Positions 660 through 63,877 of a stretch of 64,000 nucleotides of DNA are shown piece after piece. Where the stretch lies: assembly GCA_016946835.1 (NCBI GenBank), contig JACVTC010000045.1, forward strand, positions 528,501-592,500, written 5' to 3'. The DNA is from Neocallimastix lanati (nom. inval.). Lineage: Eukaryota; Neocallimastigomycota; Neocallimastigomycetes; Neocallimastigales; Neocallimastigaceae. Within the stretch, counting starts at the first letter, position 1. Each line of letters opens with the position of its first letter. Position numbers and translations under genes: made by a program. The notes beneath the pieces are model-generated. The model did no database searches, was not told where the DNA came from, and saw nothing but the letters and a program-made list of their open reading frames with translations.

Positions 660-1783
660 CATAATATAGGTATATAATATCTTTATATTATTTTGAATTG
701 TATAATGTAAGAACGGATTTTCTTTGTGAGGATATATTATTTAATATTTAATAATTTTATTATTTTATTAATTATATATTTATTTATATAAAAAATAAAT
801 TATGTTTATATTATATATTAATACTAATATTAATTTTTATAAATCATTTTTATTTTTCTCTTTTTCAATTAGTTAATTTTTTTATTTTATGTGTTTCATT
901 AATACTTAGTTAAAGATAGTTATTATTAATTAACTTGAATAAACAGATTATTTGTAATTGATAATTCTTAGTCTTAATAACTTAAAATGACTATTACTTT
1001 AAATTTAAATATTTAAAGCTTCACTAGTTAGATTATTATTTTTATTTTTTTTTCTATTATTTTCAATTTAGTTAATCTAGTTGACAATCATTTTATAGTT
1101 AATTATTTACAACTTAAATAACTAATCAACCATTATTTTATTTTTATTGTTAATCAACCTAGCTAGTTGACAATTATTTTTATTTTATTATCAATTATTC
1201 ACAACTTAGCTAGTTGACATTTATTTTTTATTTTCAATAATTTTCAACTTAGATAGACCAGTTGACTATTATTTTATTTTAATATTTTCTTTTTTTTTAA
1301 TTATAAGTATATGTATTTATATCATTTTTTTATTTTTAGAAAATTAATAATAACTATTACTTATTACAATAAGCATTTTATTTTAAATTTTATATCCTTA
1401 ACATTCTCACAATTGTTCTGTAATATTTTCTTATCGATATTGGTTATTACGTTTTGTTTCTATAATATTTTATATAAATAATGAAAATATATTTTTATTA
1501 GTTTGATTATTAATGATAAAATGATTTTTTATTTTATATAATTCTACTTAGCTTTATTGATAGCTCAACTGAAGAGTTGAGACTCTTAATCTGTGAATAG
1601 TATAAATCTCTTTTTTTTATTATATAAGAATAAAGAATAGTATATGTACAGAATTTTATACTTTTTTATGGCATTTATAGTAATCATAATATGTGGCTTT
1701 TTGTTACTATAGGTCACATATCTTACACTAATATATTAATTTATATAACATTACTATAAATCTTAATATTTTTGTTTCTAACA
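660..1783 (-). mobile_element. Fossil copia element, 5' part: LTR (1592-1783), primer site and leader
   Basis: Read on the minus strand, 1783-1592 is a 192-bp LTR that begins TGTTAGAAAC and ends CTATTCACA. It is followed directly by the primer-binding site at 1591-1577. The leader to the left contains several spaced dyads of the CAACTTAGCTAGTTGA type (about 1060-1280). It resembles the leader of the element at 28603-34648 in order and sequence. No coding part is attached, so this is a broken 5' fragment. The same LTR type recurs as solo copies elsewhere in the window. Confidence 0.6.
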
Positions 1784-28871: not shown

Positions 28872-29107
28872 TTCCCCCACAATTAAAACCTATTTTTTAA
28901 GGTTAAAATTGATTATTTTTTTTATTTTAAAAAACTTAAGTTAATAAATTTTTAAGTCCATTGGCTGTGTTAATAATGAATTTCTAAATTTATCCATGGA
29001 AGATCCGTTTAGATATTTCGTAAAGCCATCTGCTAAATTGTTTTGAGATTTTACATATTTCAATATTATTTTATTGCTCTTTACTAATTCTTTTACGTAG
29101 TGCAATC

Positions 29108-30600
29108 TTACGTCCATATGCTTTGTTCTTGGATTAATCGATTGGTTTTTTTTACATTATAGATTGCGGCTTTATTGTCTATGTTGACTTCAATACCACT
29201 GATGTTGTATTTTAATTCCTTCAATAAATTTATGTACCACATGCAATGTTTGCTACATTCGCTAAGACTATAATATTCGGCCTCAGCTGTGGAAGTCGAT
29301 ACACAATGCTGTAATTTTGAACACCAACTAGTAGGTGAATCTCCTATTGTAATTACAAATCCTGTAGTCGATCTTCTTGTTTTTGTGTCCCCAGCGTAGT
29401 CTGCATCTACGAAAGCTTTGACATTTGAGTTTCTTGATATGTTAATACCATATTTTATTGTTCCCTTTAAATATTTTAATATTCGTTTTAAATTTTCCCA
29501 ATCTTCCAAGTTAGGTTCTTTTGATTTTTGTGCCGCTTTGGATACTGCATATAATATATCGGGTCTAGTACAGATACCTAAGTATAATAAGCTTCCAACA
29601 GCGCTTCTATAAGTAGTTTCATTCATTTTCGTTTTTCTTAATTCTTCATTTTCAATTGGTGTTATATTATGAATAGGAGTAGCACTTGACAATCCATATT
29701 TGATAATTATATCGTTTATATATCTTTCTTGATTTAAGAAATAACCGTTTTTATTCTTTACAAATTTTATTCCTATTATGAAATTGACTTCACCGATTTC
29801 TTTTATTTTGAATTTATTTTTTTATAATATTTTTGATTTGATCTACTTTTGCTTTGTTACCTGCAAGTAGTATATCGTCCACATAAACAGCTATGAGGCA
29901 TGTAATCTTGTTATGTTTATCTGTTGTAAAGTATATACATGGTTCACAAGTCAATCTTTTGAAGCCAATGTTTAGTAGATGCCCATTTAATTCATTGTTC
30001 CATTCCATTCCGCTTTGCTTTAAATCATATATGGCTTTCTTGAGTTTCCAGATGTATTTCTTGTGATCGGGATGTCCTTTTGGAGGCTCCATGTATATTT
30101 CTTCCTTTAGATGAGCGTTTAAATAAGCAGCATTAACATCTATTTGTTCTATTTGGAAATTATTTCTTGCAGCTATATGTGTAAATATTCTTATCGAATC
30201 TAGTTTTAAGGTGGGTGCAAATGTATCTTTATAGTCTATTCCATGTTGCTGTGTGAACCCTTTTGCTACAAGTCTTGTTTTTCTTTTGACTATGTCCCCT
30301 TTAGAATTTCTTTTGTATTTGAATATTAGTCTGGATTTGATAATATTAGCTTCTTCTGGGATTTCATCTTTATTTACTTGTTCATAAACTTTTAGGTCTC
30401 TCAAGTTGCCAAATTCATTTTCAGCAGAGTTAAACCATTCTTCTTGATCTTCGAGGTTGTATATATCGTCATAGTCTAAAGATTCTCTTAAATTTTTATT
30501 TAATACTTGATTGTTACATATAAAAATATTATTATTGTTAGGTGTTTGGTTTCCTTTAACTTTATTGTTTTGGTTGCTTATAATACTGTTGATATTCATA
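29108..30600 (-). mobile_element. Reverse transcriptase-RNase H part of the copia element
   Basis: Copia RT signatures are visible: FKYKRNSKGDIVKRK, ARLVAKGFTQQHGIDY, the YVDDIL catalytic box and a KAFVDADYAGDTKTRRSTTG RNase H segment. Broken. Confidence 0.8.
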
Positions 30601-30844
30601 TCGTTTGTTTCAGAATGAATGTTCGTATTTAAATGATTGTTGTTGTTTTTTGTTTGATTAGTGTTGATATTATTATCATTGCTTTGAGTAGTATTAATAG
30701 TGTTATTTTGATTATTATTGATGTTGTTATTTTTGATAGTGCTGGTAACTTTGGGTTGATTTGTGCTATTAGTTGTATTTAGAGTAGAAGTGTTATTAGT
30801 GTTTTGGTCTTTTCCTTGTTTATTGAAATGAACTGTGTTTTTGT

Positions 30845-33406: not shown

Positions 33407-33839
33407 TTTATTCTTTATTAATAATTGAAGTAATATTAATATATCTTATATTTAATTTTTAATATTGTTTTAAATTATTTAATATCAGAAGAGAATTTTG
33501 TGTTTCAGGATATTCTATTTTATATATATTATTTTTATTATTTTATTAATTATATATTAAAATTATATATATTTATATTAAAAATAAATTTTGTTTATAT
33601 TATATATGTCCTTTGATTCGTATATAAAAATAAAAAATATAAACCATTTAAATTCATTGGGTACTATTAATAGTAACAAATTTTGTTTTGTATATATATA
33701 TATTGTTGTGAATATTGAAATTAATTTGTCTATAACTATAAATGTATTTGATTGCTTTTATTCTATATTAATTTAATTTAAGTTTTATTTATTTTTTAAC
33801 CCCTAGTTTTAATGACATAAATTACTATTATTTATTTCA

Positions 33840-34060
33840 ATTATTTTCAACATAGTTAGTTGTCAATTATTTTTATTTAATAGTCAAGTATTTACAACTT
33901 AACTAGTTGATATTTATTTTATTTTTATTTTTATTCAACCTAGCTAGTTGACAATTATTTTTATTTTAATATAAATTATTTGCAACTTAGCTAGTTTGCA
34001 TTTATTTTTTATTTTCAATAATTCTCAACTTAGATGAACTAGTTGACTATTATTTTATTT
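33840..34060 (-). repeat. Spaced short hairpins in the copia leader
   Basis: About five short dyads of the form GTCAAC-TAGCTA-GTTGA recur about every 45-50 bases in the leader between primer site and gag. The stem bases vary between units while pairing is largely kept (for example TGCAA with TTGCA in one unit). A similar set is at 1060-1280. Confidence 0.6.
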
Positions 34061-34124
34061 TATTTTTTATTTTATTTATATTTATAATTTTTATTTATAT
34101 AATTATGTATATATATTTATATTA

Positions 34125-34158
<34 letters not shown>

Positions 34159-34378
34159 TCAAAAATAACTATGGCCTATTACAATATATTCTCACCATTG
34201 TTTTGTAATATTTGTCTATTAATATTGGTTATTACTTTTTGTTTCTATAATGAATATTATGAAAATAATAAAAATATAATTTTATTAGTTAGGATATTAA
34301 TGATAAATTGATTTTATGTTTTATTTATTCCAACTTAGCTTTATTGATAGCTCAACTGAAGAGTTGAGACTCTTAATC

Positions 34379-34648
34379 TGTGAAAAACAAATTTATAAAT
34401 CTAAGACAAACACTGTATTAATAAAAACAATATAACAAAGTATTTTATGTTATGAGTAATATTATAAAATGTTTATTAATAATTTTTATTATGAGGATAT
34501 ATATATTTTTTCTAAGAGATATTTTTACATTAAATTTATTTCATATTTTATATCTTAGTTAACATTATTTAATTTAATTAAAGATTAATTATAGGTTGAT
34601 ATAAATTAATAATATAAATAAATGTATGTAACGATTTCGTCTCTAACA
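34379..34648 (-). repeat. 5' LTR of the copia element 28603-34648
   Basis: 270 bp, followed in element orientation by GATTAAGAGTCTCAA, the primer-binding site. Confidence 0.9.
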
Positions 34649-35299
34649 AAATATATATTTTAACTAAAAGTTATTTTTTTTAGTATAAAATTAAAATTTT
34701 TAATGAAAAATATTAAAACAAATTTTTAAAATTGAAATAATTAAATTTATATTTTTTTCGTAATTTTAAACAATTTTATTGTAATAAAAGTTAATATATA
34801 AAGTTATCAATTTAAAATATTTTTTAAAACAAAAATTGAAAATAAATAATTATTATTTAATATAAAAATTTAAAATTATTTTTCATTATAAAAAATAAAT
34901 TTGTATTAAACAGGAAAAAATTATATTTAAAAATTATTTTTAAAAATTTAAAAAATTAAACAAATATGAAAATAATTAAAATTAAATTTAATAAATTTTA
35001 TTTTGAAAAAATTTATATTTTACAAATTATTCAAATGTTCATTACTTATATGAGATATTTAATATTAAATATATATATATATTTTTTTAAAAAATTAAAT
35101 TTTAATAAAATATATTTTATTAATTAAAATTATTTAATTTTAAATATTTTATAATTATATTAAATATTGTTAGTATTATTTATACAAAATATTTTAAAAA
35201 ATATACTTTAATGCTAACTATACATGATGTAATAAAATAAATAATAAAATTTTAATTTAATATAAATATAAATAAATTATCTTTTTTTTTAATTACAGT
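34649..35299. other. Spacer inside the duplication, right copy
   Basis: AT-rich, collinear with 19794-20444. As in the left copy, a pyrimidine tract and AATTACAG precede the GT2 start. Confidence 0.6.
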
Positions 35300-36124
35300 A
35301 TGAAAAAAATGAAATTGATTATAAATGTGTTTTTTTATATTTATATTTATTTTGAAATATTTTTTAAAAATATAAATACATTAGCATTATCTATTGTAGT
35401 TCCAGTATTTAATACAAGTCCTTATTTAAATCGCTCTATTAATTCTATTTTGGATCAAACTTTCAAAGATTTTGAATTAATCCTTGTTGATGATGCATCA
35501 ACAGATAATTCTTTGGAAATATTAGTAAATTATAGTAAAATAGATAATAGAATTAAAACCATTCATTTTGAAATAAATAAAGGGGTCAGTGCTGCGAGAA
35601 ATGCAGGCATAGATATAGCTAAAGGTGAATTTATAGGATTTGTTGATAGTGATGACTTTATTGATAAAAGATTTTATGAAAATTTACTTAAAAATTCAAA
35701 AGATTATGATGTTATAGAAGGAAATTTTATCGCTGGTACCAATATCTCGGAAAGTTATAAAAAATTAAATTTACGTTTTCATTGTTCAATTTTTGATTCA
35801 ATATGGAGAAGAGATTTTCTAAATAAATATAATCTTAGATATGATGAATCAATGAGAAATGGAAGTGATAAAAAATTTAGAATGGAGGTCTATCAATATA
35901 AACCAAGAATTTTTGTGTCTCCGGATGAAGGAATTTATTATTATTATAAGAGAAGAGTAGGCTCTCTTTCAAATTTTAGTGAAATACAATTGAAATATTT
36001 AAATAAGGAAGCTTTTAAAGAAATCAGAAAACAAAAAAGAAATAAAAATAAACATAAAAAATTAATTAAAAGAGAAAAATTAAAAAAAAAAAAAAATTTA
36101 AAAAATGAAGAAAATAATAATTGA
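35300..36124 (+). CDS. GT2-family (GT-A) glycosyltransferase, complete copy
   Basis: 274 residues. Residues 5-25 are a hydrophobic signal or anchor (LIINVFFYIYIYFEIFF). The GT2 core follows: SIVVPVFNTSPYL (31-43), the ELILVDDAST nucleotide-binding loop (59-68), NKGVSAARNAG (93-103) and the GEFIGFVDSDD metal site (DSDD 116-119). IWRRDFL is in the expected place and GSDKKFRMEVY comes near residue 190. The last 45 residues are very Lys/Asn-rich. Family role: inverting transfer of a sugar from a nucleotide sugar to a growing glycan, here probably in the secretory pathway. At 274 residues it is short but has a complete catalytic core. It shares a duplicated block with the acyltransferase, so they may act on the same glycan. 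A bacterial origin is plausible. Confidence 0.8.
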   Translation: MKKMKLIINVFFYIYIYFEIFFKNINTLALSIVVPVFNTSPYLNRSINSILDQTFKDFELILVDDASTDNSLEILVNYSKIDNRIKTIHFEINKGVSAARNAGIDIAKGEFIGFVDSDDFIDKRFYENLLKNSKDYDVIEGNFIAGTNISESYKKLNLRFHCSIFDSIWRRDFLNKYNLRYDESMRNGSDKKFRMEVYQYKPRIFVSPDEGIYYYYKRRVGSLSNFSEIQLKYLNKEAFKEIRKQKRNKNKHKKLIKREKLKKKKNLKNEENNN

Positions 36125-44900: not shown

Positions 44901-47690
44901 GATGTTCTGGCTGTTTAAACTGACGCTGGTGATTCTTTTGCCGGAATCATTGTAAATGGTTAAATAGGGTTTGTTGTTGTAATTGAAAAATATGATTTTA
45001 TAATGTTGTTGAATAAGCTTGGTAACTGATATTATACTTTTGTTTATACTATCATCTTAGAACACGTTCTTTAATGTAAGTTTTGAATTTTCGATATATC
45101 CGGTAAAATTACCGTAGGCGAAGGCAACAACTGTCGTACTGTTTGGGAGAATAACTTCTTCATTACATTTTTTAATATCTGTAAGTAAGTCAATACATCC
45201 TATGATATGTATGGAGGGGTCTGAGTCCATTATCTATTGTGATATGTGGTTTTATGGATTATGGTTATTGCGGACAACATTTGTAATACAATTTGTAATA
45301 TACCATTTCAGTATTATAATCTTCGAAGATATCTTGAGGTTTTTCAATGGCATTCACTTGATTCCTATGTTTGTTTCTAATATTCTTGGAAGTACTTGAA
45401 ATGTTGTTACTCTAACTCTTTCTGAGGTTCTTTTTGAATGGTTTCCTTTTGAATCTGTATTTGGCTTTGTTTCTGCATTTGTAAGAGTAATGTCCAAAGG
45501 TACTATAGTTGAAGCATTTACCATTCTTTCTTTTTCTTGCTGTGATAACCTTAGAATTTTTGTTTCTATTCTTGGCTTGAGATTCAACTAGGAATAATTT
45601 GTTCTCTTCCATTTTGGATATCTCTTTAGTGTTGGAGAATATGATGTCTGGAATGACATCCTTATCGTAATTTTAGAGTTGCTTCCAATCATTTTTATAT
45701 TGGTTAAAATTTATAAGCCATAGGTTTTCAGAGAGTGACCTATTCAAAATACCAGTCTTGACAGATCACTTAACTCATAATCAATATTTTCTAGCTCATA
45801 TATAGCGTTTTGGAGTTTAGCAATAAAGATATTAATATCGTCTTCTTCATTATATTTCAGATTATTTATTTTGTTTTTGATTTCCAGTTTCCTTTTCTAT
45901 GGATTCATTGTTAAGGACTTTTCTAACATAGTCCATATTTGATGGGCTGTGTTTCCATTACCTTCAATTATCTTTTTTGTTTTTTTTTTCCTAGACTGTT
46001 TGTAATGATTCATTTTACCATTACATCGTTTTTTATGTCTTTTAACGATGTGTTCTTATCGTATACCAGGCTGGGGTCAAACTTGTCTTCTAGGTAGTTT
46101 TCAAGGTCATCCATTAGATTTCTTTTTCTAAGTTTCATTATTTTTTCTTCTATTACGTATCCTTCTAAGTTGTTAATCATCAGTACATATAGAATGTTCG
46201 TTCTCCAGTTAAGATAATTTTCTGTAGATAGTTCAATAACACGATTGAAATTTTCCGTGTAATTGAGGTGATGCCTTTTGTTATGGTTTCATCAGTGTCA
46301 ATATAGTTATAGGAACTTTGTTTCTGTTTATATTCATATTGTTATCTCCTTTTTGAATTTTTAATAAATGTTTTCTTGAGGAAGGATTTTTTTTTTTCGT
46401 TTGCTAAGTTTTTGAAATTTTATGTTAGCAAATGATATGATTGCTGTTTATTTATCTTATTTTATTTTATTATTTAATTTAATTGGTTGAAATACTATTA
46501 TTTGATTTGTTGAATGATTATATTTTTTTATTTTTTTTTGTGTTAAATTTAATTGGTTAAGTTATAATTACAGTAATTTTTATGTTTTAAATTATTAGTT
46601 TAAATTTTGATATTAAGTTCTTCATTGTTTTATATATTTATTTAGGACGAATTAAATTCACTTTTAATTTATTATTAATTTAATATTTTTTTATTTTATT
46701 TTAAATTCAATTTGCTAAATTATTTGTTAATTCCTTTGTTCTTAATATGAATTATATTTTATTTTAAATCTTATTATTTAATTAGAATTTTAATAAGATT
46801 TTTGTGTTGTCACTAACTATTTTCAGTGTGATGTCTATTATTTTCTGCTGACTATTTCAGCATAGTATTATTTAATTCTTATTTGTATAAGTGTTTTTTT
46901 TTTTTTGTATAAAAGTTAAAAGGTGAATTGTTTCTCTTCTTTTAAATATATATGTATTATGTTGAATTCGATTAAAAAAATTCCTTTTTTTCTTTTTGTT
47001 TTGTTTTTTTTATATATTTTATTTTTTTTTAGTATTTTAATACATAAATTATTAAGAATTTATTTTATTATTTATTTTATACTATATATATTGTAATACT
47101 TAGCTTTACATGAGTTGAGATCTTTATTAGGTGAGTTGAGACTCTTAATCTTTTGGACACTAAAATAATAAAAGTACACTTATAAAGTATATAATATTAA
47201 TATAGCATTTATTTTTTTTATAATAAAAAAATAATTACATTTTTATGAACTATTTGTAATTTTCTTTTCTTATTTTGTTTGTATGTAAAATATGAATGGT
47301 AGATATTATGTTCGAAATATTAATATTATCGTTTAAAATATTCTAATTTTTTAAAATTTTAATTATTATTTTTCTAATATAATGAATTATTATATCAATA
47401 TGTTTAGTATTCGAATTAATAGATTGATTATTGCTGTTGAAGATTGCAACTATGTTATCTATATTTATTTTATTATAATTAATATTATAATATAATAATT
47501 TCATTACGTTTAAATACTAAATACAGTGTTTACTACATTCGCTTAAACTATAATACTTCGAATCTGCAGTAGATGTTAATAAGCAATGTTGCAATATGGA
47601 ACACAAGCTAGTGGGTGCGTTGTCCATTGTTACTTAAAAACATGTCATTGTTCTTCTGGTCTCAGTATCCCCTACAAAGTCAGCAATGTA
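41945..47690 (-). mobile_element. Old copia element (3' LTR and RNase H end), host of a nested element
   Basis: A degenerate minus-strand 3' LTR lies at about 41945-42148, with a purine tract (GAGGAGGAGT) beside it. The RNase H/C-terminal end of pol continues at 42150-42319, is interrupted by 42325-47338, and resumes at 47344-47690 with the QHCxxTSTAxSxYYSLSEC region. The rest of the element is missing. It is broken, with several breaks, and older than the element inside it. Confidence 0.65.
42325..47338 (-). mobile_element. Nested copia element, old and heavily broken, with LTRs and TATTC target duplication
   Basis: LTRs are 42325-42512 (3') and 47151-47338 (5'), 188 bp each, with several differences. 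TATTC occurs on both sides (42320-42324, 47339-47343). The primer site is 47150-47136 and a purine tract abuts the 3' LTR (GAGGGGAAG). Parts in order: leader about 46350-47135, gag with zinc knuckle (CFNYSTFGHYSYKC) about 45350-46320, integrase about 43900-44850, reverse transcriptase and RNase H about 42700-43600 (YVDDILL, VYVDADFAGDTESRKSTSG). At least ten breaks. It lies inside an older element of another type. Confidence 0.8.
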
Positions 47691-50596: not shown

Positions 50597-50802
50597 TGTT
50601 AAAATATATTTACTATATTTCATTTTATATTAACCAACCAATTAGTTTAATAAATAATATTCATGTATAAAAGCTTTCTGAATGAATATGTTTTTCTTTA
50701 GTTCTATTTTTTTATAAAAAATATATTAATAAATAATAAAATATCTATAATATAAATAAATTAAACTATTATTTAATTATATAAACATTAATGTGTCTAA
50801 AA
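50597..50802 (+). repeat. 5' LTR of the outer copia element
   Basis: 206 bp, TGTTAAAATATATTTAC to GTGTCTAAAA; abuts GATTAAGAGTCTCAA. Confidence 0.9.
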
Positions 50803-51029
50803 GATTAAGAGTCTCAATTTACTAATTGAGTTTGAATTAAATTAAAGTTAAGTTATAATATAAATTAAATTTTTTCTATTTTTACCTTTCAATAAAACCA
50901 AAGAACTAATAAATTATTATTTTTATTATTTATTATATTTTATTTATTACCGAATCAAATCCATAAGAGATAAAGATATTTTTTTATCTACAATAAATAA
51001 AATTATAGTTAAATTGTCAAATAATAAAA

Positions 51030-51280
51030 TTAATATCATCAAGATGAAAAAAAAAAAATAATTTATTGTCAACTGATGATATTAATATTAAAATAAAATA
51101 AAAATGATATCATCAAGATGAAAAATTTATTGTCAACTGATGATATTAATATTAAAAATAAAATAAACATAGTATCATCAAGATGAGAATTAAATAGTCA
51201 ACTGATGATACTAATATTAAATTAAATTAAATCTAATATCATCAAGATGAGAAATAAATAGTCAACTGATGGTATTTAGA
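51030..51280 (+). repeat. Tandem array of four hairpins in the outer element's leader
   Basis: Four units of about 65 bases (starting near 51032, 51106, 51172 and 51236). Each has TATCATCAAGATGA, an A-rich loop and GTCAACTGATGATA. The TATCATCA and TGATGATA arms pair. In the third unit the next outward pair changes from A-T to G-C on both sides (AGTATCATCA with TGATGATACT), and the fourth has a G-T wobble. This argues for an RNA stem kept by selection. Confidence 0.8.
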
Positions 51281-51785
51281 TAAATTTGAAACTAAAATAT
51301 TATTAATATAAAAAATATAAATAAATTAAAATAATAAAAAAAATTAATTATATGTATTAAATAAAATTTTGAATAAATTTCATTATGTAATATATCAAAT
51401 ATATTAAAATGAAATTATAAAACTAATCAATGAATAAAATAAATAAAAAAATCTAATCAAATAATAATCACCTTTTATTTAATCAAAATTAATAATAAAT
51501 TAATATATAAATGCCTTATTTATTAAAGTTTGGTATTACAATACTAAATGAGATAAAAATAGTAACAAATTAATGAAATCAAATTTAAGTAAAAATTAAA
51601 ATGAGAATTTTTAATATAACAAATTAATACTAATAAATTAATAAAAATTAACAGAATTAAATATTATAATATTTTTTTAAAAAAAAAAAACTACTAAAAT
51701 ATTTTTTTATTAATTGAGATATTAAAAAATAGTTATAATTAATTTAAAATAATAATAAAAATTTAAGATTTCAAAAGTATTCGAA

Positions 51786-54569
51786 ATGGCTGGAAGAAGA
51801 AGAAACCAAGAACAAGTTATCAACCTCACCGGAGAAGATATTACACATAACGGAATAACCTTTAATTATTCCGAAAATTTCAACCAAATTACTGAACTAA
51901 ATACAGAAAACTAACCTGGTTGGAGAAGAAAAATTCTGTATTTGCTAACAATAAATAAATTAACCAAATATGTCCTTCATCCAATTGTAAAGAAGTTAAG
52001 AAAGAGAGACATAAGAGAAGAATTAACAGATTACCCGGAGGATCAATTTGATAGTTCGTTAGTTTATGAAAAGAACACTAAAAACATTGATATAACTAAC
52101 GACATCACGGCCAAATGGATTATCATAAATGGGCTTGGAGAACAAACACGAAAACTAATAAATGGAAATGAAAAGACCGCTTTTCAAATTTGGAACATCT
52201 TCCAAGAATCGTTTACCAAAAGCAAGGAAAGAAGAAAAATCGAAATCCAAAACAAAATTGAAACAATGAAGTTTGACACCAAGACCGATATAAATATATT
52301 CATTGCCAATTTGCAAAATTTAATATACGAACTTGAGAAAATTGACAATGACCTTAGTATAAATACAAAAATCGGCATTCTTAATAGATGCTTACCAGAA
52401 GATCTAAGGTGGATAAACGTCTTTCAACATAAGAGTTGGGAATCATGCTGCACCTATGTTAAGGAAATCATCCCTAATATCGTTTTATCTAATTTAAAAG
52501 AAAAAAATTCCATTCAGGAAAACAACAATAATGTTCTCTTCAACACTGAAACAAGAAAGAGCAAGAATTATCGAAACAATAATAGAAATAAAGGTAAAAG
52601 AAAAAGCCTCAAAAGGAGTAGTGGAAGATGCAACTATTGTGGAAGAAGAGGACATTACTTCTATGAATGTAAATTCAGAAAAAATAATTTATATAAAAAT
52701 CAAAACAAAAATAAATTTAATAAAAGAACTAAAAACAAAAGAAAATTTCAAAACGATATTAATTATCTGAACACTAATGATGCCTCTTCAAGTAATTATG
52801 ACACAATATACGCAGATGCCTTTACTAAAGATTATAATACAGAAAATAATATTGAATTAAATTACTGTAACGTTGAAAAAGAATTTTTAAATGAAGATAG
52901 TGACAAAAACTTTCTTTCATGTTGGATTTTGGACTCCGGTGCTTCAATCAATATCACAAGCAATCTTAATCTTCTAATAGACATAAAAAAATGTAATGAA
53001 GAAATTAATCTAGCTAATGGACAAATAATTACAGCTGTCCATAAAGGAAAATTTAAGGGGTATGTAAACAACAATGAAATAATACTTAATGGGGTATACT
53101 ACTCTCCGGCTATCAATAAAAATTTAATATCCATATGCAAATTACTAAAAGAAAATTACAAAATTGTTTTTAATAATTCAAATAATAAATCATATGCAAT
53201 CATTTACAATAGCAACAATAAAAGAATAGTTAACATCACTGCTACCAAGACTAATACATTTAAAATTTGGTTTTCCAATAATAAAATAAATCTCAATAAT
53301 AATAACAATCAACATAATAATTTAGTAATAAATTTCACTACACCAAATGCAGCAAAGAGATTAAATTTATGGCATAGAAGATTATGTCATTTTGATATTA
53401 GTCATATTAAAAACAAATTATTAAAACTTAATACACCAGTTAATCAATGCCCAATTTGTATGAATTCAAAACTTAAAAATAAACCATATAAGCAAACAAT
53501 AAATAAGTCGAAACATATATTTGAATTACTTCACATGGACTTGGTTGGTCCTCTTCCTGAATCACTTTATGGTAACAAATACCTTTTTACAATCCTCGAT
53601 GACTATTCACGCTATGGATGGACTTTGTTTTTAAAATCTAAAAGTGACACCTTTAACTCATTTTACAATTGGTTTTTAAGTATTAAAAATAAGTATAATA
53701 CTAGAATTATATATATTCGAACGGATAATGGTACAGAATTTTGCAATAATAATTTTAATTTATTCTTTAAATCTTACGGTATTAAACATCAACTAACTGT
53801 ACCATATAACCCACAACAAAATGGAAGGGTGGAACGCTTCAATGGCACCCTAATTAACTCCGCCAAAGCTATGCTAAATGACTCTAAACTTAGTCACCAA
53901 TTTTGGGAAGATGCTACCTCTACTGCTAATTATATACATAATCGCATTCCTCACAAAGGAATAAATATGAAAATACCATATGAAATAATTAATAAAACAA
54001 AGGTCAACTACTCAAATATTAAAGTATTTGGATGCAAAGTTTATTTCTTTATTCCTAAAATCTTTAAGTCTAAATTCGATAACAATACTAGACCAGGTAT
54101 TTTTCTACTATTCTCTGAAAACCCATCAGCTTTCAAAATTTTAGATATTACTACTAATAAAATAATCCTATCTAGATCTGTTGCCTTTTTCGAATCCAAT
54201 CCTGGAAACAGTTATCTTAAAGAATGCTCACCTGAATTTTCCAATTTTATTCCGGATCACGAAATCAGGGGAGATAATACATATAATACATATTATAATA
54301 AAAATACATACGATACCAATACATATAACATTAATCATAATATTCAACAAAGATTAAATAAAATTGATTATCCAGGTTCTAATGAATTTTTTAATTCAGA
54401 AAACATTCTAAGTAATTCACCAATATTAAATAATAGCAATATACAAAATATATACGAAGATATAATCAATAAAAATAATTCTAAGAATAAAAGAAAATAT
54501 AATAAAAAACAAAGAAATAATAATCACAGTAACAATAATAGTAACAATAACAATGAAAATATTAATAAT
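51786..54569 (+). mobile_element. Gag-protease-integrase part of the outer copia element
   Basis: The gag begins MAGRRRNQEQVINLTGED. Recognisable parts: CNYCGRRGHYFYEC zinc knuckle, LDSGASINITSNLN protease site, LWHRRLCHFD...CPICMNSK integrase zinc region, DLVGPLPES, RTDNGTEFC and NPQQNGRVERFNGT. It ends in an Asn-rich spacer where the nested element sits. Broken. Confidence 0.85.
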
Positions 54570-54855
54570 TGTTAAAAATATATTTTAATATAAAATTTAA
54601 TCTATGATTATTCAATATTTTACAAATACAAAATACTCGAAATACTATAAAACGTGCTTAAATAATAATCCTAATTTTTTTTTTCTCTTTAACAATAAAA
54701 AACCTTAATATATATATACTATCATACATACTTAATTAAATATATTTATAATAATAAATATTAATATATAATAAAGAATATAAAACATCTTTACTTAAAC
54801 ATAATTATAATATTATCTTAATATTGTGTGTCTCTTAATTGTGTGTTTATTAACA
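54570..54855 (+). repeat. 5' LTR of the inner copia element
   Basis: 286 bp, TG...CA ends, preceded by the target duplicate ATAAT. Confidence 0.95.
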
Positions 54856-54890
54856 GATTAAGAGTCTCAATCTCAACCGATTGAGATAGA
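54856..54890 (+). other. Primer-binding site for a 5' half of tRNA-Lys(CUU)
   Basis: GATTAAGAGTCTCAA directly follows the LTR. Its complement contains CTCTTAA, a standard anticodon loop with CUU at 34-36 and U33. Further complementarity (CTCAACCGATTGAG) mirrors a D-arm with the GG of the D-loop. The primer would end at about nucleotide 40 of the tRNA, as in the half-tRNA priming known for Drosophila copia. Confidence 0.75.
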
Positions 54891-56289
54891 ATGAAAGTTA
54901 AGTATTAATAGCTACAGTAATATATATACTTATTTAAGACAAATAAATATAAATTCATACTAATTTATTTTTTTTTTTTTTTTTCATTTATTTTAAATAA
55001 TAAAAATAAAATAAAATTAATAATAATATATAAAATAATAATAATTCAACAAAATATCCAACTCTAAACAAAAACATTAAAAAAAAATAATTTCATACGA
55101 GTTATTAAAATAATATGATAATATAAGGAGCCGATTAATCAAAAATAAAATTAAATTATAGTTTTAAAAGTTTAAATAGAAATTGACAATAAAATCAAAA
55201 ACTTATAAGCTGAATAAAAGATAAAAAAAAGAGTCAGCTATCAAAAATATAAGCTGAATAAAAGATAAAAAAAAGAGTCAGCTATCAAAAATATAAGCTG
55301 AATAAGAAGATAAGATGTCAGCTATCAAAAGTATAAGCTGAGTACTATAACTAAATAAAGTCAGCTATTTAATTCATAAGCTGAATAAAAATGTCAGCTA
55401 TCAAAGACATGAGCTGTATATCAATAAATTATTTAAAAGGTCAGCCATGTGATTAATAAATTAAATAAAATTAAGTCAGCTATCAAGTATATAAGCTGAA
55501 TACTAAAAAAAATAATAATAAAGTCAATTTCTTTTCTATAAACTAATTTTAAAATTATAATGTCAGACATCCATATAAAAATAATAATAAATAAAACGTC
55601 AATAATACTAACTCTACAAAATACAATAAGTTAAAATATAAATAAACATAATTCAAATTAAAGGTTATACAATAAATAAATAATAATAAAAATCGGTCAA
55701 ATCACAAAATAAATAAATCACTTTTAATATAAACAAATATCATAATAAAAATTTAAAATATTTTCATAAACAACTCACCAATAGTTAGATTTTTTAATAT
55801 AAACTAACAATAATAATAAAATATAAACATGACAATCAAATAACTATTTTTTCATAATTAAAATCAACAAATGATCAATACTATAACAAAGAAAATATTA
55901 ATAAAATAATAACGACAATATAATTTTATTAATATTAATTTATTTATATTATATTGATCATGTTTAATATAAACAAAATATACAGATGTCATCTGATTAA
56001 TCACTTCATATATAAATAAAAATTTTCTTAACGTTCCAATTATATATATTAATTTAATAAATAATCAACCAAATAAAATATTGAAATAAATCATGTTTCT
56101 AAAAATAATAACCAATATTTTTTATTTAAAGCAAAATTAATATTTTACGAATTCAAATAGTACTTTTTAGAAATATAAATAAACTCAAATTATATTTTTT
56201 TACTTTTCAAAATTATTTAAAGAAAGTAATAAAATAATTAATAAGCAATTATAATTCATAATAACATTTTTTTTTGGAATTAAACTAAC
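54891..56289 (+). other. Long untranslated leader of the inner copia element
   Basis: About 1.4 kb between primer site and gag with no sizeable open frame, including the hairpin array at 55200-55505. Copia-type leaders are usually much shorter. The rest is A/T-rich. Confidence 0.7.
55200..55505 (+). repeat. Tandem array of six to seven hairpins in the inner element's leader
   Basis: Units spaced about 35-65 bases alternate TATAAGCTGAATA and GTCAGCTATCAA (GCTGA arms near 55208, 55253, 55297, 55337, 55380, 55495; TCAGCTA arms near 55234, 55278, 55318, 55361, 55394, 55476). AGCTGA pairs with TCAGCT. One unit reads CATGAGCTG...CAGCCATG (about 55408-55448), changing both arms together so that pairing is kept, which argues for RNA structure. 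Confidence 0.8.
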
Positions 56290-59200
56290 ATGAGCAGAAA
56301 TAACTTAAGAAGTAATTCTAGAAATAGTATCAATTCTACCCAAGACCAAATAATAAACATCAGTGAATATGAACCCACACAAAAGGGGTTCACTTTTAAC
56401 TACAGTGAAAACTTTAATCATATTACGGAATTGACAACAGATAACTTTGTTAACTGGAAAACAAATATCCTTTATCTCCTTTGTATTAATAACCTCGATG
56501 ACTACATAAGTCATGAAAAAGTGAAAAAGATAAGAAGGAGAGATATAACAGAAAGCATTGAAAAATATACGATTGATAAATTCGATAATTCCCTTGTGTA
56601 CGAAATCGGAACAAGCGAAAAAGATATTAAAAATGACATATTAGTAAAATGGATCATAACAAATAATCTTGGTGAGAACACCAAGAAAATATTGGAAAGT
56701 CAAAGCAAAACGGCCTTCCAATTATGGGAACTACTTAACAAGTCTTTTACCATAGGACCTGAACAAAGAAAAATGGTCCTAAAAGACAAAATCAATAAAT
56801 TGAAATATAATTTAGAAGATGATGTCCATATTTTCTTAGCTGTCTTACAAAATCTCCTGGATGAATTGGAAAGAATAGACTCCGATATTAATGACAATGT
56901 TAAGGTCGGTATTTTAAATCGAGCTCTCCCTGAAAACATTAGATTCATTAATGTTTTCCAATACAATAATAATTGGACAAAATGCTGCGACTATGTCAAA
57001 AGGATAATACCAGATATTGTTTTCTCCAATATCAGAGAAACAGCTTTAATTGAACAAAATCCGAAGAATATATTTAGTTTAGGAAATGGACGAAAAATCT
57101 CTAAACCTAAGAAAATAAAATACAAGAAAAGAAAAAATGGAAAATGCTACCTTTGTGGAAAGTTCGGACACTACCGAAAAGACTGCTTAAAAAACAAATA
57201 CAATAAAAACAAAAGAAACAACAAACAACATAAAAGAAAAGGTAATACAAAAAAATTCAACAAAGAAAAACCAAGAGAAGGCCATGCATATCTATTAAAC
57301 GATAAAAAGGATTATAATGAAAACTACCAAGAAGACTTCTCAAGAGATTATAACTCAGACAACTGTTTTGAATTAAACAATTTAGAGATTAACAAGCCAA
57401 CAAAAATTGATATAAGAAGCAACAATAATAATATTACACAATGGATTCTGGATTCCGGTGCCTCAATTAATGTAACAAATAACATTAATATATTATCAAA
57501 CATCAGAAAAGAAAAAATAAAAATATCTCTTGCCAATGGAAAGGAAACATATGCTAACTACATTGGTGATTTCAATGCATATATAAACAATCATAAATTT
57601 ATTTTAAAGAACGTTCATTACTCTAAATTTATCAAGAAAAATTTAATATCAATCAATCAATTAATAACACAAAATTATAAAATTGTTTTCAATAACTATA
57701 AAAACTCACAAATCGCAATCATCTATGACGACAAAGGTAATAGAATATATCAATCAGCAGCAGACAATAAAAATATATTTAAAATATATTTATCAAAAGC
57801 ACCATCCATTTTTCATAAGAACAATAATTTCGAAAATTTAAATGAAATTAATTCAACACATATCAACAATAAACAAGATTTTGATCTTTGGCATAGACGC
57901 CTGGGTCATTTCGACATTACTAAAATAAAAGATAATTTAAAAAATACTAATACAAATACAAATCACAAATGTCAAATATGTTCCAATTCAAAATTAAGGA
58001 ACAAATCTTTCAAAAGATCAATTAATAAAACAAAACACATTTTCGAACTTATACATCTTGATTTAGTGGGCCCCGTATTGCCATCCTTAAATAAGAATAT
58101 ATACTTCCTCACAATCCTGGATGACTTTTCTAGATATGGCTGGGTCTTATTCCTACAACATAAAAATGAAACATTTAATAAATTCATTATTTGGTACAAA
58201 GAAGTTTTAAACACATTCAACATTAAAATCAAAAATATTCGATCAGATAATGGAAGGGAATTTTTTAATAATAATTTTAAAATATTCTGTCAAAATAATG
58301 GTATAATACATCAATACACTATACCATATAATCCAGCTCAAAACGGGAAAGCTGAACGATTCAACGGCATACTTATATCTTCCCCAAAAGCTCTACTAAA
58401 TGAATCAAAACTTTCTCATAATTTTTGGGAATTTGCTGTCGATACAGTAAATTATATTCACAATCGTTTACCCCATCAGGGTATAAACAATAAAGTACCA
58501 TTTGAGATTCTATATAATAAACCTGTTGATTACAGCATATTTAGAGTTTTTGGATGCAGAGTATTTTTCTTTATACCAAAAGAACTACGATCCAAATTTG
58601 ATAATAATTCACACCCTGGAATTTTCTTAGGATATTGCAATAACCCATCATCTTATAAAATCCTTGATTTAACCAACAATAAAATCGTGCTATCTCGAAC
58701 TGTCCAATTTTTTGAAAACAATCCTGGAAATTCAGTCTTACTAAACTATAATTCCAATAACGAATTCAGGGTGAATGATTACTCAGTCAAAAATTTTTCA
58801 AACAATAATTATAACAATTATAATTATCAAAAATACAACAACAACAATCACAACTATCAAAACAACTATAATAATATTAACGATTCACAATATAATAGCA
58901 ATATTTTAAGAAATAAAAATAAACATAAAACTTATAAAAAACAAAAACAAAATAAAAATGATAATCCAGAAGATAATAATAATTCAGAAAATGACAACAT
59001 TACTTCAAATAATATCAACATCAATAATGAAAACAACATTAACAATACTAGTAATAATACTTTCAATAATAACAATAAAAATAACACTAATAATCAAAGT
59101 AATATCTATATCAATGATTCATCAATCAATAATAATAAAAAATTAAACAACAATAATATTTGCAACACTAATACAAGAAACTATAGAAATAATGAATTTA

Positions 59201-60999
59201 ATGACAATAATATTACCAATAATCTTAATAAAAATAATGATAATATTCCTAATAAAAATACAACTGAAGAATCTAATATGGAAAGTACAATTAATTACGT
59301 AAATAAATTAAACAATACTAATAACAATAAAATTGAAATATCCCACTATCAACACAATACAACAAACAATAATACAAATAAAAGAAACATTAATTATGAA
59401 GCAAAAGCATCAAGCAAAAGAATAAAATATAGTGAAAAGAATATATCAAAATTAAATGAAGAAAACAATATATTCAGAGAACCATATAACTTTAAAGATA
59501 TATTTAACCTTAAAGATAAAGAGCAATGGATGGAAGCCGTAAATGAAGAATTAAAAAATATGGAAAAGCTAAATGTTTTTCAGATTGTAAATTCAGTTCC
59601 AGAAGGATCTAACGTTATATCATCACGTTGGGTATTTAAATATAAAAGAGACTCCAACGGTAATATAATAAAAAGAAAAGCAAGATTAGTTACGAAAGGT
59701 TATACGCAGCAGTATGGAATTGATTTCAAGGAAACGTTTGCTCCAACTTTAAAACAAGATACAATAAGGATTATCACAGCAATAGCTGTTCAGCATAATT
59801 TTAATATCGAACAAATAGACATTAACTCTGCATACCTTAATGCAGATTTAAAAGAAGATATATATATGAAATCTCCCGAAGGTCATCATTCATTCAATAA
59901 ATGTTTTTGGAAGCTTAAAAAGGCCCTTTATGGCTTAAAGCAAGCTGGAAAAGAATGGAACGAAAAATTGAATAATGAGCTTTTTAAATTAAATTTTAGA
60001 AGAGCTAAGAGTGAACCTTGCGTTTATATTAAGACAGATAGGAATAATAAAATAATATGCATTTTGTCGGTATACGTAGATGATATATTAATTGCGGGAA
60101 CAGATCATGAAATCAAAATTGTAAAAGATTCAATAAAAAGAAAATTTAATATTAAAGATATAGGTAATGTAGAATTCGTTATAGGAATTAAATTTAATAA
60201 GATCAGAAATGGCTATATTTTACATCAAATAAAATATATTAACGATATATTATTCAAATATGAAATTAATAAACTTACACCATCGAAAAATTTAATACCA
60301 GTGGAAAATAATAAATTGAAATGCATAAAATTTAATGAAACGAAATACCGAAGTGCCATTGGGAACCTATTGTATCTTGCTATTTGTACCCGACCTGATA
60401 TCCTATTTGCTGTGAGCAGAGCAGCAAGAAAATCCAATAACCCTAACTTAGAGGATTGGAATAATGTTCTTAAAATATTCAGATACTTAATGTACACAAA
60501 AAACTATGGTATAAAAATTGAAAAAGGTATTAACCTTAAGGTTTATGTAGACGCAGATTTCGCTGGAGACTCAATCACAAGAAAATCTACTTCAGGATTC
60601 CTGATGATGATGGGAAGAACGCCAACCAGTTGGTTCTCGAAATTGCAACATTGCGTATCTACCTCAACGGCCGAAGCTGAATATTATAGTTTGAGCGAAT
60701 GCGCAAAGCATTCATTATGGTATAAGAATTTATTAAACGAACTTGGAATAAAAATTAATAATGTAAAAATTTTCGTCGACAATAAAGCAACAATATATAA
60801 TAGTAAGAATCAGTCAATTAATCCCAAGTCGAAACACATTGATATTCGGTATCATCATATTAGAGATCTTGTTAATAAAGGATTAATCAAATTGAATTAC
60901 ATAAACACTAAAGAAAATTTAGCCGACGGATTCACGAAATACTTAAACAATACTTTAATGGATAAATTTAGAATTTCCCTTCTTACTAAAATTGAATAA
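56290..60999 (+). CDS. Gag-pol polyprotein of the inner copia element
   Basis: 1569 residues in one frame. Parts in order: UBN2-type gag about 1-270; zinc knuckle CYLCGKFGHYRKDC at about 286-299; protease with DSGAS at 388-392; integrase with LWHRRLGHFD...CQICSNSK near 532-570, HLDLVGP, RSDNGREF near 652 and an FLGY C-terminal domain; a very Asn-rich spacer about 830-1040; reverse transcriptase with WVFKYKRDSNGN, ARLVTKGYTQQYGIDF and YVDDIL at 1262-1267; RNase H with KVYVDADFAGD near 1418; the LADGFTKYL tail. This is the standard Ty1/copia order with integrase before reverse transcriptase. It looks whole; no separate gag stop or frameshift signal is seen. Confidence 0.95.
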   Translation: MSRNNLRSNSRNSINSTQDQIINISEYEPTQKGFTFNYSENFNHITELTTDNFVNWKTNILYLLCINNLDDYISHEKVKKIRRRDITESIEKYTIDKFDNSLVYEIGTSEKDIKNDILVKWIITNNLGENTKKILESQSKTAFQLWELLNKSFTIGPEQRKMVLKDKINKLKYNLEDDVHIFLAVLQNLLDELERIDSDINDNVKVGILNRALPENIRFINVFQYNNNWTKCCDYVKRIIPDIVFSNIRETALIEQNPKNIFSLGNGRKISKPKKIKYKKRKNGKCYLCGKFGHYRKDCLKNKYNKNKRNNKQHKRKGNTKKFNKEKPREGHAYLLNDKKDYNENYQEDFSRDYNSDNCFELNNLEINKPTKIDIRSNNNNITQWILDSGASINVTNNINILSNIRKEKIKISLANGKETYANYIGDFNAYINNHKFILKNVHYSKFIKKNLISINQLITQNYKIVFNNYKNSQIAIIYDDKGNRIYQSAADNKNIFKIYLSKAPSIFHKNNNFENLNEINSTHINNKQDFDLWHRRLGHFDITKIKDNLKNTNTNTNHKCQICSNSKLRNKSFKRSINKTKHIFELIHLDLVGPVLPSLNKNIYFLTILDDFSRYGWVLFLQHKNETFNKFIIWYKEVLNTFNIKIKNIRSDNGREFFNNNFKIFCQNNGIIHQYTIPYNPAQNGKAERFNGILISSPKALLNESKLSHNFWEFAVDTVNYIHNRLPHQGINNKVPFEILYNKPVDYSIFRVFGCRVFFFIPKELRSKFDNNSHPGIFLGYCNNPSSYKILDLTNNKIVLSRTVQFFENNPGNSVLLNYNSNNEFRVNDYSVKNFSNNNYNNYNYQKYNNNNHNYQNNYNNINDSQYNSNILRNKNKHKTYKKQKQNKNDNPEDNNNSENDNITSNNININNENNINNTSNNTFNNNNKNNTNNQSNIYINDSSINNNKKLNNNNICNTNTRNYRNNEFNDNNITNNLNKNNDNIPNKNTTEESNMESTINYVNKLNNTNNNKIEISHYQHNTTNNNTNKRNINYEAKASSKRIKYSEKNISKLNEENNIFREPYNFKDIFNLKDKEQWMEAVNEELKNMEKLNVFQIVNSVPEGSNVISSRWVFKYKRDSNGNIIKRKARLVTKGYTQQYGIDFKETFAPTLKQDTIRIITAIAVQHNFNIEQIDINSAYLNADLKEDIYMKSPEGHHSFNKCFWKLKKALYGLKQAGKEWNEKLNNELFKLNFRRAKSEPCVYIKTDRNNKIICILSVYVDDILIAGTDHEIKIVKDSIKRKFNIKDIGNVEFVIGIKFNKIRNGYILHQIKYINDILFKYEINKLTPSKNLIPVENNKLKCIKFNETKYRSAIGNLLYLAICTRPDILFAVSRAARKSNNPNLEDWNNVLKIFRYLMYTKNYGIKIEKGINLKVYVDADFAGDSITRKSTSGFLMMMGRTPTSWFSKLQHCVSTSTAEAEYYSLSECAKHSLWYKNLLNELGIKINNVKIFVDNKATIYNSKNQSINPKSKHIDIRYHHIRDLVNKGLIKLNYINTKENLADGFTKYLNNTLMDKFRISLLTKIE

Positions 61000-61159
61000 T
61001 ATAGTGTAAAATGTGCTATCTTTTTTTCTTATATATAATAAGTTTTTTTTTTAAGAAAGCTCTCCAAATCAAATTAAAAGTAGTATAATTTTTCAAAATC
61101 TACCTTCATTTTTTTTCTTTGTATTAAGTTTTTTTTTTGAAGCTAGATTTTAGGGTGAA

Positions 61160-61446
61160 TGTTAAAAATATATTTTAATATAAAATTTAATCTATGATTA
61201 TCCAATATTTTACAAATACAAAATACTCGAAATACTATAAAACGTGCTTAAATAATAATCCTAATTTTTTTTTTTCTCTTTAACAATAAAAAACCTTAAT
61301 ATATATATACGATCATACATACTTAATTAAATATATTTATAATAATAAATATTAATATATAATAAAGAATATAAAACATCTTTACTTAAACATAATTATA
61401 ATATTATCTTAATATTGTGTATCTCTTAATTGTGTGTTTATTAACA
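61160..61446 (+). repeat. 3' LTR of the inner copia element
   Basis: 287 bp, preceded by the polypurine tract TAGGGTGAA, followed by the target duplicate ATAAT. Confidence 0.95.
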
Positions 61447-63463
61447 ATAATGATAACCATAACAATAATTTCATTAATAATAATACAAATAATAAAAATG
61501 ATATAAACAATAATAATAACATAACCAATAATAATTTTATCAATAATAATAATACAAATAACGGTAATGAAAATAATACAAATAATAGTAATAATAAAAT
61601 TAGAATTAATAATAATAATATTGAAAATAATAATAATAATATTGAAAATAATATTAATAATCAAAATAGAGAAGATACTAATAATAAAATAAATGATAAT
61701 ACAGCCAATAAAACAATCAATAAAAATAATAATATTGAAAACAGTAGAGTAAATGACAACACAATTATCAATAAAAATTATATTCAACGTAATGGAAACG
61801 AAATTATAAATACTTTATTGACTAATAATAATTCATTTAAATTAAATAATATCGAGACCAATAATAAAAAAAGAACTATGAATGTTATAAATGAAAGTAA
61901 TAACAAAAGAAGAAAGACAACAAATACCTTAAGAGAACCAGAAAATTATAAAGACATTCAAAATTTAATTGATAGAAAAGAGTGGATTAACGCAGTAAAT
62001 GAAGAATTAAGCAATATGAAAAACTTAAATATATTTAATACAATTAAATATATACCCAAAAATGCCAATGTAATTACCTCACGATGGATTTTCAAATATA
62101 AAAGAAATGCGAATGGCGAGATAACAAAAAGAAAGGCAAGATTGGTAGCACGAGGTTTTACCCAAGAATTTGGAATAGACTTTCATGATACTTTTGCACC
62201 AACGTTAAAACACGATTCTATCAGAATTTTAACTTCAATTGCTGCCCAAAATAATTTTAATATAGAACAAATCGATATAAACGTTGCTTACCTTAATGCC
62301 AAGTTAAGTGAAAATATTTATATGAAACCTCCAGAAGGTCATCCAGATTTTAATAGAAAATACTGGAAATTAAACAAGGCTATATATGGTCTGAAACAAA
62401 GCGGACGAGAATGGAATAAAGAAATCAATAAATTTTTAACTAAAATAGGACTTAGAAGAATGGTAAGTGAACCATGTATTTATGTAAAAAACGATAAAAA
62501 TAAAAACATTTTATGTATCGTAGGTATTTATGTTGACGATATTTTAATCGCTGGAAAAGAGAATGAAATTAAATGTATAAAAGATTATTTCAAAAGAAAA
62601 TATAAAATAAAAGAAATTGGCGATGTGGATTTCGTTATCGGAATCAAATTTGTTAAACACAAAAATGGATATTTTATGCATCAAAGAAGATACATTATAG
62701 AGGTTTTAGAAAAATTCAATATGAATAATGAAAAACCATTAAGGAATACAAAACCAATTACGGACGACAAACTTAGAAATATAAAGTTTAATCAAACTAC
62801 TTACCGAAGTGCAATAGGAAATTTACTCTACATTGCTATATATACACCAGACCTGATATTCTATTTTCGGTAAGTAAAGCAGCACGAAAATCAAATAATC
62901 CGAATATGGAAGACTGGAACAATGTCGTAAGAATACTAAGATATCTTAAAGGAACAACGAGTTACGGGATAAACTATACAAGGAAACTAGGAATAGAAGC
63001 CTTTGTTGATGCCGACTTTGCAGGAGACACTGAAACCAGAAGATCAACAACAGGTTTTTTAGTAACTATGGGCAACGCACCAACTAGCTGGTGTTCCAAG
63101 CTACAACACTGTGTGTCAACATCTACTGCAGAATCGGAGTATTATAGTCTGAGTGAATGTGGCAAGCACTGCATTTGGTATTTAAACTTAATGAAAGAAT
63201 TATAATATTAAATGTATTAAATTAAATTAGATAACAAAGCTGCCATATTCAATAGCAAAAATCAATCCATTAATCCGAAGACAAAGCATATTGATATAAG
63301 AATTCATTATATTAGAGAAATAATAAATAAAAATTTTATAAAATTAGAATATATTCAATCTCAAAATAATTTGGCCGATGGATTCACTAAATATCTAAAC
63401 AACACCCTTATGGAAAAATTCAGAAATTCTTTGTTATATAAAATTGAGGATTTAAAATTTTAA
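61447..63463 (+). mobile_element. Reverse transcriptase-RNase H part of the outer copia element
   Basis: It begins in the Asn-rich spacer, then WIFKYKRNANGEITKRK, ARLVARGFTQEFGIDF, YVDDILIAG, FVDADFAGDTETRRSTTG, QHCVSTSTAESEYYSLSEC and an LADGFTKYLNN tail. A minus-strand Ile-rich frame (61404-61787) is only a shadow of the Asn codons. Broken. Confidence 0.85.
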
Positions 63464-63527
63464 TTCTAAAAATATAGTTAAAATTAAACAAATGTAACAT
63501 TGAAACGAAGTTACATTTGAGGAGGAG

Positions 63528-63733
63528 TGTTAAAATATATTTACTATATTTCATTTTATATTAACCAATCAATTATTTTAATAAATAATATTCATGTATA
63601 AAAGCTTTCTGAATGAATATGTTTTTCTTTAGTTCTATTTTTTTATAAAAAATATATTAATAAATAATAAAATATCTATAATATAAATAAATTAAACTAT
63701 TATTTAATTATATAAACATTAATGTGTCTAAAA
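63528..63733 (+). repeat. 3' LTR of the outer copia element
   Basis: 206 bp, two differences from 50597-50802; followed by the target duplicate AAATA at 63734-63738. Confidence 0.9.
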
Positions 63734-63738
63734 AAATA

Positions 63739-63877
63739 AATATAATTTTAGTTAGTGAACAAAAAATTTATTCAAGAAGTCTTAATACAATGTGAGAGTT
63801 TTTTCATCGATCATCCAAATTCATTCCAAAGCGATGAAAAAAAAAATACATATGTCATAAATAAACTAAATGGACAA
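63739..63877. other. Flank of the outer element with mixed composition
   Basis: Less A/T-biased than typical spacer (GATGAAAAAA, TTCATCGATCATCC) and possibly part of a decayed minus-strand gene continuing from the next entry, but no frame stays open. Confidence 0.25.

Follow-up and report, generated by a model that had tools for sequence, protein, structure and literature searches.

A tandem hairpin array in the leader of a copia retrotransposon of Neocallimastix lanati, a possible RNA domain for recognition by Gag

What does a tandem array of inverted repeats do in the leader of a copia retrotransposon of the fungus Neocallimastix lanati? The element, element A, lies in a 64,000-nucleotide stretch of contig JACVTC010000045.1 (positions 528,501 to 592,500, forward strand). 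This whole stretch is the window, and all coordinates below are positions in it. The array of element A stands between the primer-binding site and gag, inside a domain predicted to fold more stably than shuffled sequences, and other copia elements of the window have arrays at comparable leader positions. We read the region tentatively as a cis-acting RNA domain, most likely one that Gag recognizes for packaging and/or dimerization, and consider this possible rather than probable.

The host of the array is an intact Ty1/copia long terminal repeat (LTR) retrotransposon, with the following parts.

54570..54855, + strand: 5′ LTR of element A, 98.6% identical to 61160-61446 over 287 columns, with ATAAT before it at 54565-54569
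54856..54870, + strand: primer-binding site (PBS) GATTAAGAGTCTCAA, directly 3′ of the 5′ LTR and common to the window's copia elements
55205..55499, + strand: dyad array in the leader of element A, with seven AGCTG-type and seven TCAGC-type arms alternating
56290..60999, + strand: gag-pol open reading frame of element A, a single open frame of 1569 aa with gag, CCHC knuckle, integrase and reverse transcriptase (RT)
61160..61446, + strand: 3′ LTR of element A, with ATAAT after it at 61447-61451

By direct reading, ATAAT is a target-site duplication that flanks the element on both sides. The domains of the polyprotein follow the order Retrotran_gag_2, rve, RVT_2 (RVT_2 E 3.1e-63), showing that the integrase precedes the RT, and its Gag has a CCHC zinc knuckle, CYLCGKFGHYRKDC. 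The similarity of the LTRs, the ATAAT on either side and the 1569-codon frame with copia gag, integrase and RVT_2 bear out an earlier note, made from the sequence alone, which had called this a whole copia element. Counted from the PBS to gag, the leader measures 1434 nt, with a G+C content of 16.7%.

The AGCTGA-type arms of the array start at 55208, 55252, 55296, 55336, 55379, 55412 (variant AGCTGT) and 55494, and the TCAGCT-type arms at 55234, 55278, 55318, 55361, 55394, 55441 (variant TCAGCC) and 55476. The dyad sequence and copy number given earlier for this leader were correct. Tandem Repeats Finder reports 55194-55390 (period 44, 4.6 copies, score 211) and 55352-55420 (period 33). A dyad scan searched 1274 overlapping segments of 350 nt for any 6-mer present in at least 3 exact copies along with its reverse complement, the 6-mer having two or more G/C and not being self-complementary. 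Eleven segments passed, all over the leaders of element A (up to 6 copies) and copia element B (3 copies). The same count in 20 simulated first-order Markov sequences reached 3 once in 25480 segments and never exceeded it. The array is therefore not a product of chance, since such dyad density is confined to leaders A and B and nearly absent from the simulations. Arrays of elements C, D and E, whose arms vary, stay below 3 copies in this exact 6-mer scan. Rfam 15 at gathering score gave 0 matches on both strands of 50600-63800.

The predicted fold of leader A places the array within a long stem.

55155..55187, + strand: 5′ side of the enclosing stem, from minimum free energy (MFE) fold and pair probabilities
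55523..55561, + strand: 3′ side of the enclosing stem, from MFE fold and pair probabilities

In the MFE fold this 32-bp long-range stem closes the whole array, and 28 of its 32 pairs have a probability >0.9. Its duplex is at -24.9 kcal/mol versus a shuffle mean of -7.9, and 0 of 2000 shuffles were as stable, with flanks picked once the fold was known; when the flanks were fixed at 60 and 150 nt, 0 of 500 shuffles were as stable. The 407-nt domain formed by stem and array has a sense z of -4.86 (0/200 shuffles) and an antisense z of -4.02, and a separate fold run on 431 nt of element A gave a z of -4.16 (0/100 shuffles). The array without its stem is modestly better than shuffles, with a z of -1.97 in sense (11/200) and -2.47 in antisense (4/200). 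An origin of the stem from a miniature inverted-repeat transposable element or foldback insertion was rejected as far as the window goes: the matches listed there included no further copy of the domain, and direct reading showed no target duplication at its ends.

The arms of the array can pair in two phases. In the first phase, AGCTGA-N9..23-TCAGCT with a bulged A, the loops are 20, 20, 16, 19, 9 and 23 nt, and 8, 8, 8, 8, 8 and 7 of 8 pairs are kept across six units. The short-loop phase, in which TCAGCT comes before AGCTGA, has the form TCAGCT-AT-N7-AT-R-AGCTGA; its spacing is 12 in all seven units while the central bases vary, and the pairs kept are 8, 8, 8, 8, 7, 5 and 8 of 8. Boltzmann pair probabilities range unit by unit from 0.32 to 0.98 in the AGCTGA-first phase and from 0.00 to 0.98 in the short-loop phase. 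Energetics do not choose a phase. Two units depart from the common form.

55408..55449, + strand: variant unit CATGAGCTG..CAGCCATG, 7/8 pairs kept in the AGCTGA-first phase, pair probability 0.98
55441..55464, + strand: decayed short-loop unit TCAGCC-ATGTGATTAATA-AATTAA, 5/8 pairs, spacing 12 retained

The variant unit was said earlier to have changed both arms together and kept its pairs. This description holds in the AGCTGA-first phase: one pair changed from A-U to G-C on both sides, one was lost, and one extra outer C-G pair, gained, can be read directly. The short-loop phase puts the two variant arms in two neighboring hairpins, one of them decayed.

Four other copia elements of the window carry arrays or hairpins in their leaders.

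51031..51275, + strand: dyad array of copia element B, GTCAACTGATGATATT..AATATCATCAAGATGA, Tandem Repeats Finder period 64, 3.2 copies
33830..34048, - strand: dyad array of copia element C, made of TCAACT..AGTTGA dyads with a spacing of 5 or 10
1030..1268, - strand: dyad array of element D, a decayed relative of C, with repeat dyads in the leader
46801..46868, - strand: two hairpins of the decayed copia element E, TGCTGA-AATAG-TCAGCA and CACTGA-AAATAG-TTAGTG

Counted in nt from the PBS start, the arrays lie at 349-644 in A, 226-470 in B, 331-545 in C, 325-566 in D and 286-343 in E, and the Gag proteins of B and C are only 47-54% identical to that of A. The sense fold z is -6.49 for B, -5.20 for C and -5.37 for D (each 0/200 shuffles) and -2.41 for E (6/200); the antisense values are -6.03, -4.40, -3.74 and -0.92. 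The sense strand is further below its shuffles than the antisense strand in 5 of 6 comparisons, not all of them independent, the exception being array A without the stem. By direct reading, one position is compensated between elements, with TCAGCT/AGCTGA in A versus TCAACT/AGTTGA in C and D, and B has A-A there. Two compensated pairs and one G-U separate the two hairpins of E, again by direct reading and with few events.

The leaders of C and D align with a mean column identity of 83%. Per 60 columns the identity is 0.79-0.90 up to column 540, 0.73 in 541-600 and 0.56-0.61 in 601-840. It is back to 0.88 at 841-900 of the 1086 columns, as if a segment had been exchanged.

The arrays of A to D have a motif in common. 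GTCARCT occurs in sense 6, 4, 2 and 4 times in arrays A, B, C and D (16 in total) and 0 times in antisense; elsewhere on both strands of the 64 kb there are 4 copies (7680, 9621, 54003 and 2443), none of them in the LTRs of element A. AAGNTGA (N = C, T or A) occurs in sense 6, 4, 1 and 1 times in the same arrays, 0 times in antisense and 24 times elsewhere. With the first 60 nt of each leader left out, TCAAC and CAACT in leaders B, C and D all fall inside the arrays. Four 6-mers present at least twice per leader are common to B and C, and four such 5-mers to A, B and C; 0 of 300 simulations did as well in either case.

Several results weigh against a selected RNA domain. The R in GTCARCT was picked after looking, A having GTCAGCT and B to D having GTCAACT. 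Three of the four 5-mers common to A, B and C, namely TCAAC, CAACT and GTCAA, are found in A only outside the array, and the fourth, TGTCA, has 2 copies inside and 2 outside. No 6-mer with two or more G/C is common at two or more copies to A and either B or C, and none of the five best BLAST hits between leaders A and B or A and C touches the array of A. Being mostly outside that array, the shared 5-mers do not tie it to the others; since the BLAST hits miss it as well, its link to the arrays of B to D rests on GTCARCT, position and architecture. No single pairing phase serves all elements: C and D fit short loops, E the opposite phase and A either. An enclosing stem was not found around the arrays of B to E with flanks of 60 or 150 nt, the shuffles as stable for B, C, D and E being 75, 57, 393 and 68 of 500 with 60-nt flanks and 370, 289, 97 and 413 of 500 with 150-nt flanks. 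The antisense folds of A to D also beat their shuffles, as inverted repeats would, so that folding cannot separate an action in RNA from one in DNA. Permuting the 3′ arms in the AGCTGA-first phase equals the observed pairing in 120 of 720 orders (p about 0.17), and the arms of the C and D arrays show no higher conservation than the spacers (62/75 versus 119/140 positions). In L001 (SUTQ01000038.1, 513-5502), which is the sole outside copy of a window element with gag and leader side, the match to element C ends 34 bases gag-proximal to the array of C, at a break that may be a real rearrangement or an assembly join. L001 is thus without the array because the match ends short of it.

Covariation within the array has no statistical support. 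In the short-loop phase all 5040 of 5040 arm permutations pair equally well, making that test uninformative, and the earlier argument that covariation signals selection on RNA comes down to one unit with one compensated pair, which one in six arm orders would match as well. The covariation argument for a selected RNA structure is thus not supported, and what stands of that claim is the foldable domain with its stem, together with the arrays at a similar place elsewhere.

The dyads could have no selected function at all, having been spread or kept by tandem duplication, through slippage or template switching, in a permissive AT-rich leader. Units 1 and 2 (55205-55248 and 55249-55292) are identical 44-nt tandem copies, indicating a recent duplication, and units decay both in A (55441-55464) and in D. 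The permutation result and the conservation of the C and D arms would also be accounted for. We nonetheless think this unlikely, because arrays with GTCARCT in common stand at a similar leader place in B and C despite the low Gag identity to A, the spacing of 12 is held in 7/7 units while the central bases vary, and the enclosing stem was matched by 0 of 2000 shuffles.

The strongest rival, which we rate as rather unlikely, is a regulatory array acting at the DNA level, in which the transcribed leader would hold clustered sites bound by a host protein and act as an insulator or enhancer. The untranslated leader of Drosophila copia carries tandem enhancer repeats. We know of no hairpin arrays in it. 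Clustered GTCARCT in A to D would suit a binding site, and dyads account for the folding of both strands. In the excerpt of PMC2443393, the untranslated leader region of Drosophila copia is bound in vivo by chromatin proteins. The gypsy insulator is similar, with 340 bp in the 5′ untranslated region (UTR) and 12 binding sites in AT-rich sequence according to the excerpt of PMC2374998. In both gypsy and element A, short sites are repeated over about 300-340 bp of AT-rich sequence in the 5′ UTR of an LTR retrotransposon, the gypsy sites being those of Su(Hw); the same excerpt describes no hairpins for the gypsy sites, whereas dyads and a 32-bp stem are present here, in copia elements. The spacing between TCARCT and its partner is 12 in A, 5 or 10 in C and D and 41-42 in B, which fits variable hairpin loops better than a fixed dimer site. 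Moreover, GTCARCT is always in sense and is absent from the LTRs of A, and the enclosing stem of A would have no role. If the array is a DNA insulator instead, a fungal copia element would have a counterpart of the gypsy insulator.

The length of the leader raises the question of translation. With 12 upstream ATGs in the 1434 nt of leader A, simple scanning to gag would be hard, and the structure might let ribosomes reach gag past the 1.4-kb leader through internal entry, reinitiation or shunting, and a large closed domain resembles a shunt structure. However, 7 of the 12 upstream ATGs are outside the domain and a further one is at its very end, so that jumping the domain would help little. 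The ATG count is also not clearly below shuffles in A, B and E (186, 390 and 115 of 500 as low), being so only in C and D. We regard control of translation as improbable for this domain.

The depletion in the last two leaders is an observation of its own. Leader C (33407-34378, - strand) has 6 ATGs versus 12.9 in shuffles (2/500 as low) and leader D (601-1591, - strand) has 9 versus 14.0 (11/500). A and B do not clearly show this depletion, which might point to scanning translation in the family of C and D.

Recognition by Gag is favored over these alternatives because the region lies between PBS and gag, its motif is in sense, the loops vary while their base stays similar, and in A the domain is closed. 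From these features we infer a structured cis-acting domain of the genomic RNA between PBS and gag. In element A, if the RNA folds in the cell as predicted, the 32-bp stem would close a multibranch loop with about six small hairpins that have a one-nucleotide bulge. The repeats may be a duplicated recognition unit, given that other copia leaders have hairpin arrays at comparable positions. Gag, which has a CCHC zinc knuckle, would then recognize the element's own RNA for packaging and/or dimerization into virus-like particles. Array A is near the 5′ end of the genomic RNA, as is expected of a packaging or dimerization signal. To our knowledge, how copia-type elements choose their own RNA for packaging is poorly defined outside yeast. 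In Ty1 RNA the main packaging, dimerization and priming signals are near the 5′ end, as given in the excerpt of PMC4974528. Ty1 resembles element A in being copia-type with cis signals near the RNA 5′ end, which in Ty1 are bound by Gag, with PAL sequences in intermolecular contacts; it differs in having a pseudoknot, and the same excerpt (PMC4974528) makes no mention of tandem hairpin arrays. Within one open-licence collection, no literature report of tandem hairpin arrays in LTR-retrotransposon leaders was found.

A broader proposal, distinctly doubtful, is that the copia elements of this fungus, probably an anaerobic gut dweller, have a common modular leader of tandem bulged hairpins with the base GTCARCU / AAGNUGA. 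Loops and inner stems would vary between families with the base motif retained, the whole would serve as a multivalent platform for Gag binding, and a long stem would close the array of one element. If Gag recognition is true, a repeated hairpin platform found in several elements of the same genome, with a sequence that changes from one to the next, would be a compact packaging or dimerization signal, and its differing hairpin numbers and loop sizes would form a natural series for comparison.

The PBS gives some indication of how the element is primed. The complement of the PBS resembles a tRNA anticodon arm whose loop is CUCUUAA, which we take to be the tRNA-Lys(CUU) form. This likeness suggests priming by a half tRNA; Drosophila copia is primed by a half tRNA. 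PBS-like sites are present at 9 places in the window at up to 2 mismatches, and in the MFE fold of leader A a hairpin overlaps the end of the PBS.

54864..54887, + strand: hairpin overlapping the PBS end, CTCAATC..GATTGAG, from the MFE fold of leader A

In an alignment of eight PBS regions, judged by eye, the arms of this hairpin change in step, being CTCAATC/GATTGAG in A, CTCAATT/AATTGAG in B and CTCAACT/AGTTGAG in C and D; the hairpin is poorly kept in E and in the region F39. The remaining four PBS sites (39914, 49309, 21165 and 1837) have no array of their own in the following 1.7 kb by eye, a stretch that enters element D in the case of 1837. Sites 21165 and 1837 are remnants like the LTR and early leader of B.

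No other copies of element A were found in the collections scanned. A Gag alignment search gave 65 pattern stretches and 0 relatives in the viral_contigs collection, and 514 stretches with one relative, L001, in genome_contigs. L001 is 98.8% identical to element C over 4993 nt. The RT search gave 14 stretches in viral_contigs and a further RT alignment search 310 stretches, with 0 relatives in either. The RT search found matches in only one of 138 genomes of the family of genome G001, namely G001 itself, none in phages, and 3 distant records (29-35% identity) in plasmids. With tblastn, the gag and RT pieces of element A matched only L001, L013 and L014 among 87 loci. A Methanosphaera stadtmanae metagenome-assembled genome contains the L001 contig and a second copia fragment (L014, on G001 contig 12); these copia contigs are apparently mis-binned eukaryotic DNA in a prokaryote collection.

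Three pattern searches were judged to return chance matches. The PBS 16-mer gave 11 stretches in viral_contigs, with no tRNA by ARAGORN and a G+C content of 0.37-0.59. In G001 the PBS pattern with 2 mismatches gave 4 matches versus 9 for its reversed control. The hairpin patterns gave 57 and 12 stretches in viral_contigs, with one match listed for each and so no arrays.

Element A is nested within copia element B, whose LTRs are at 50597-50808 and 63528-63739. Its insertion point in B (50597-63739) is in an Asn-rich stretch between integrase and RT, and the gag of B has a stop near its start, at about 51912. Elsewhere in the window, a 3.2-kb duplication, 99% identical, relates 17876-21055 to 26679-28603 plus 34648-35910. 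The duplicate at 17876-21055 shows the uninterrupted site, because the other copy is split by copia element C (28599-34648).
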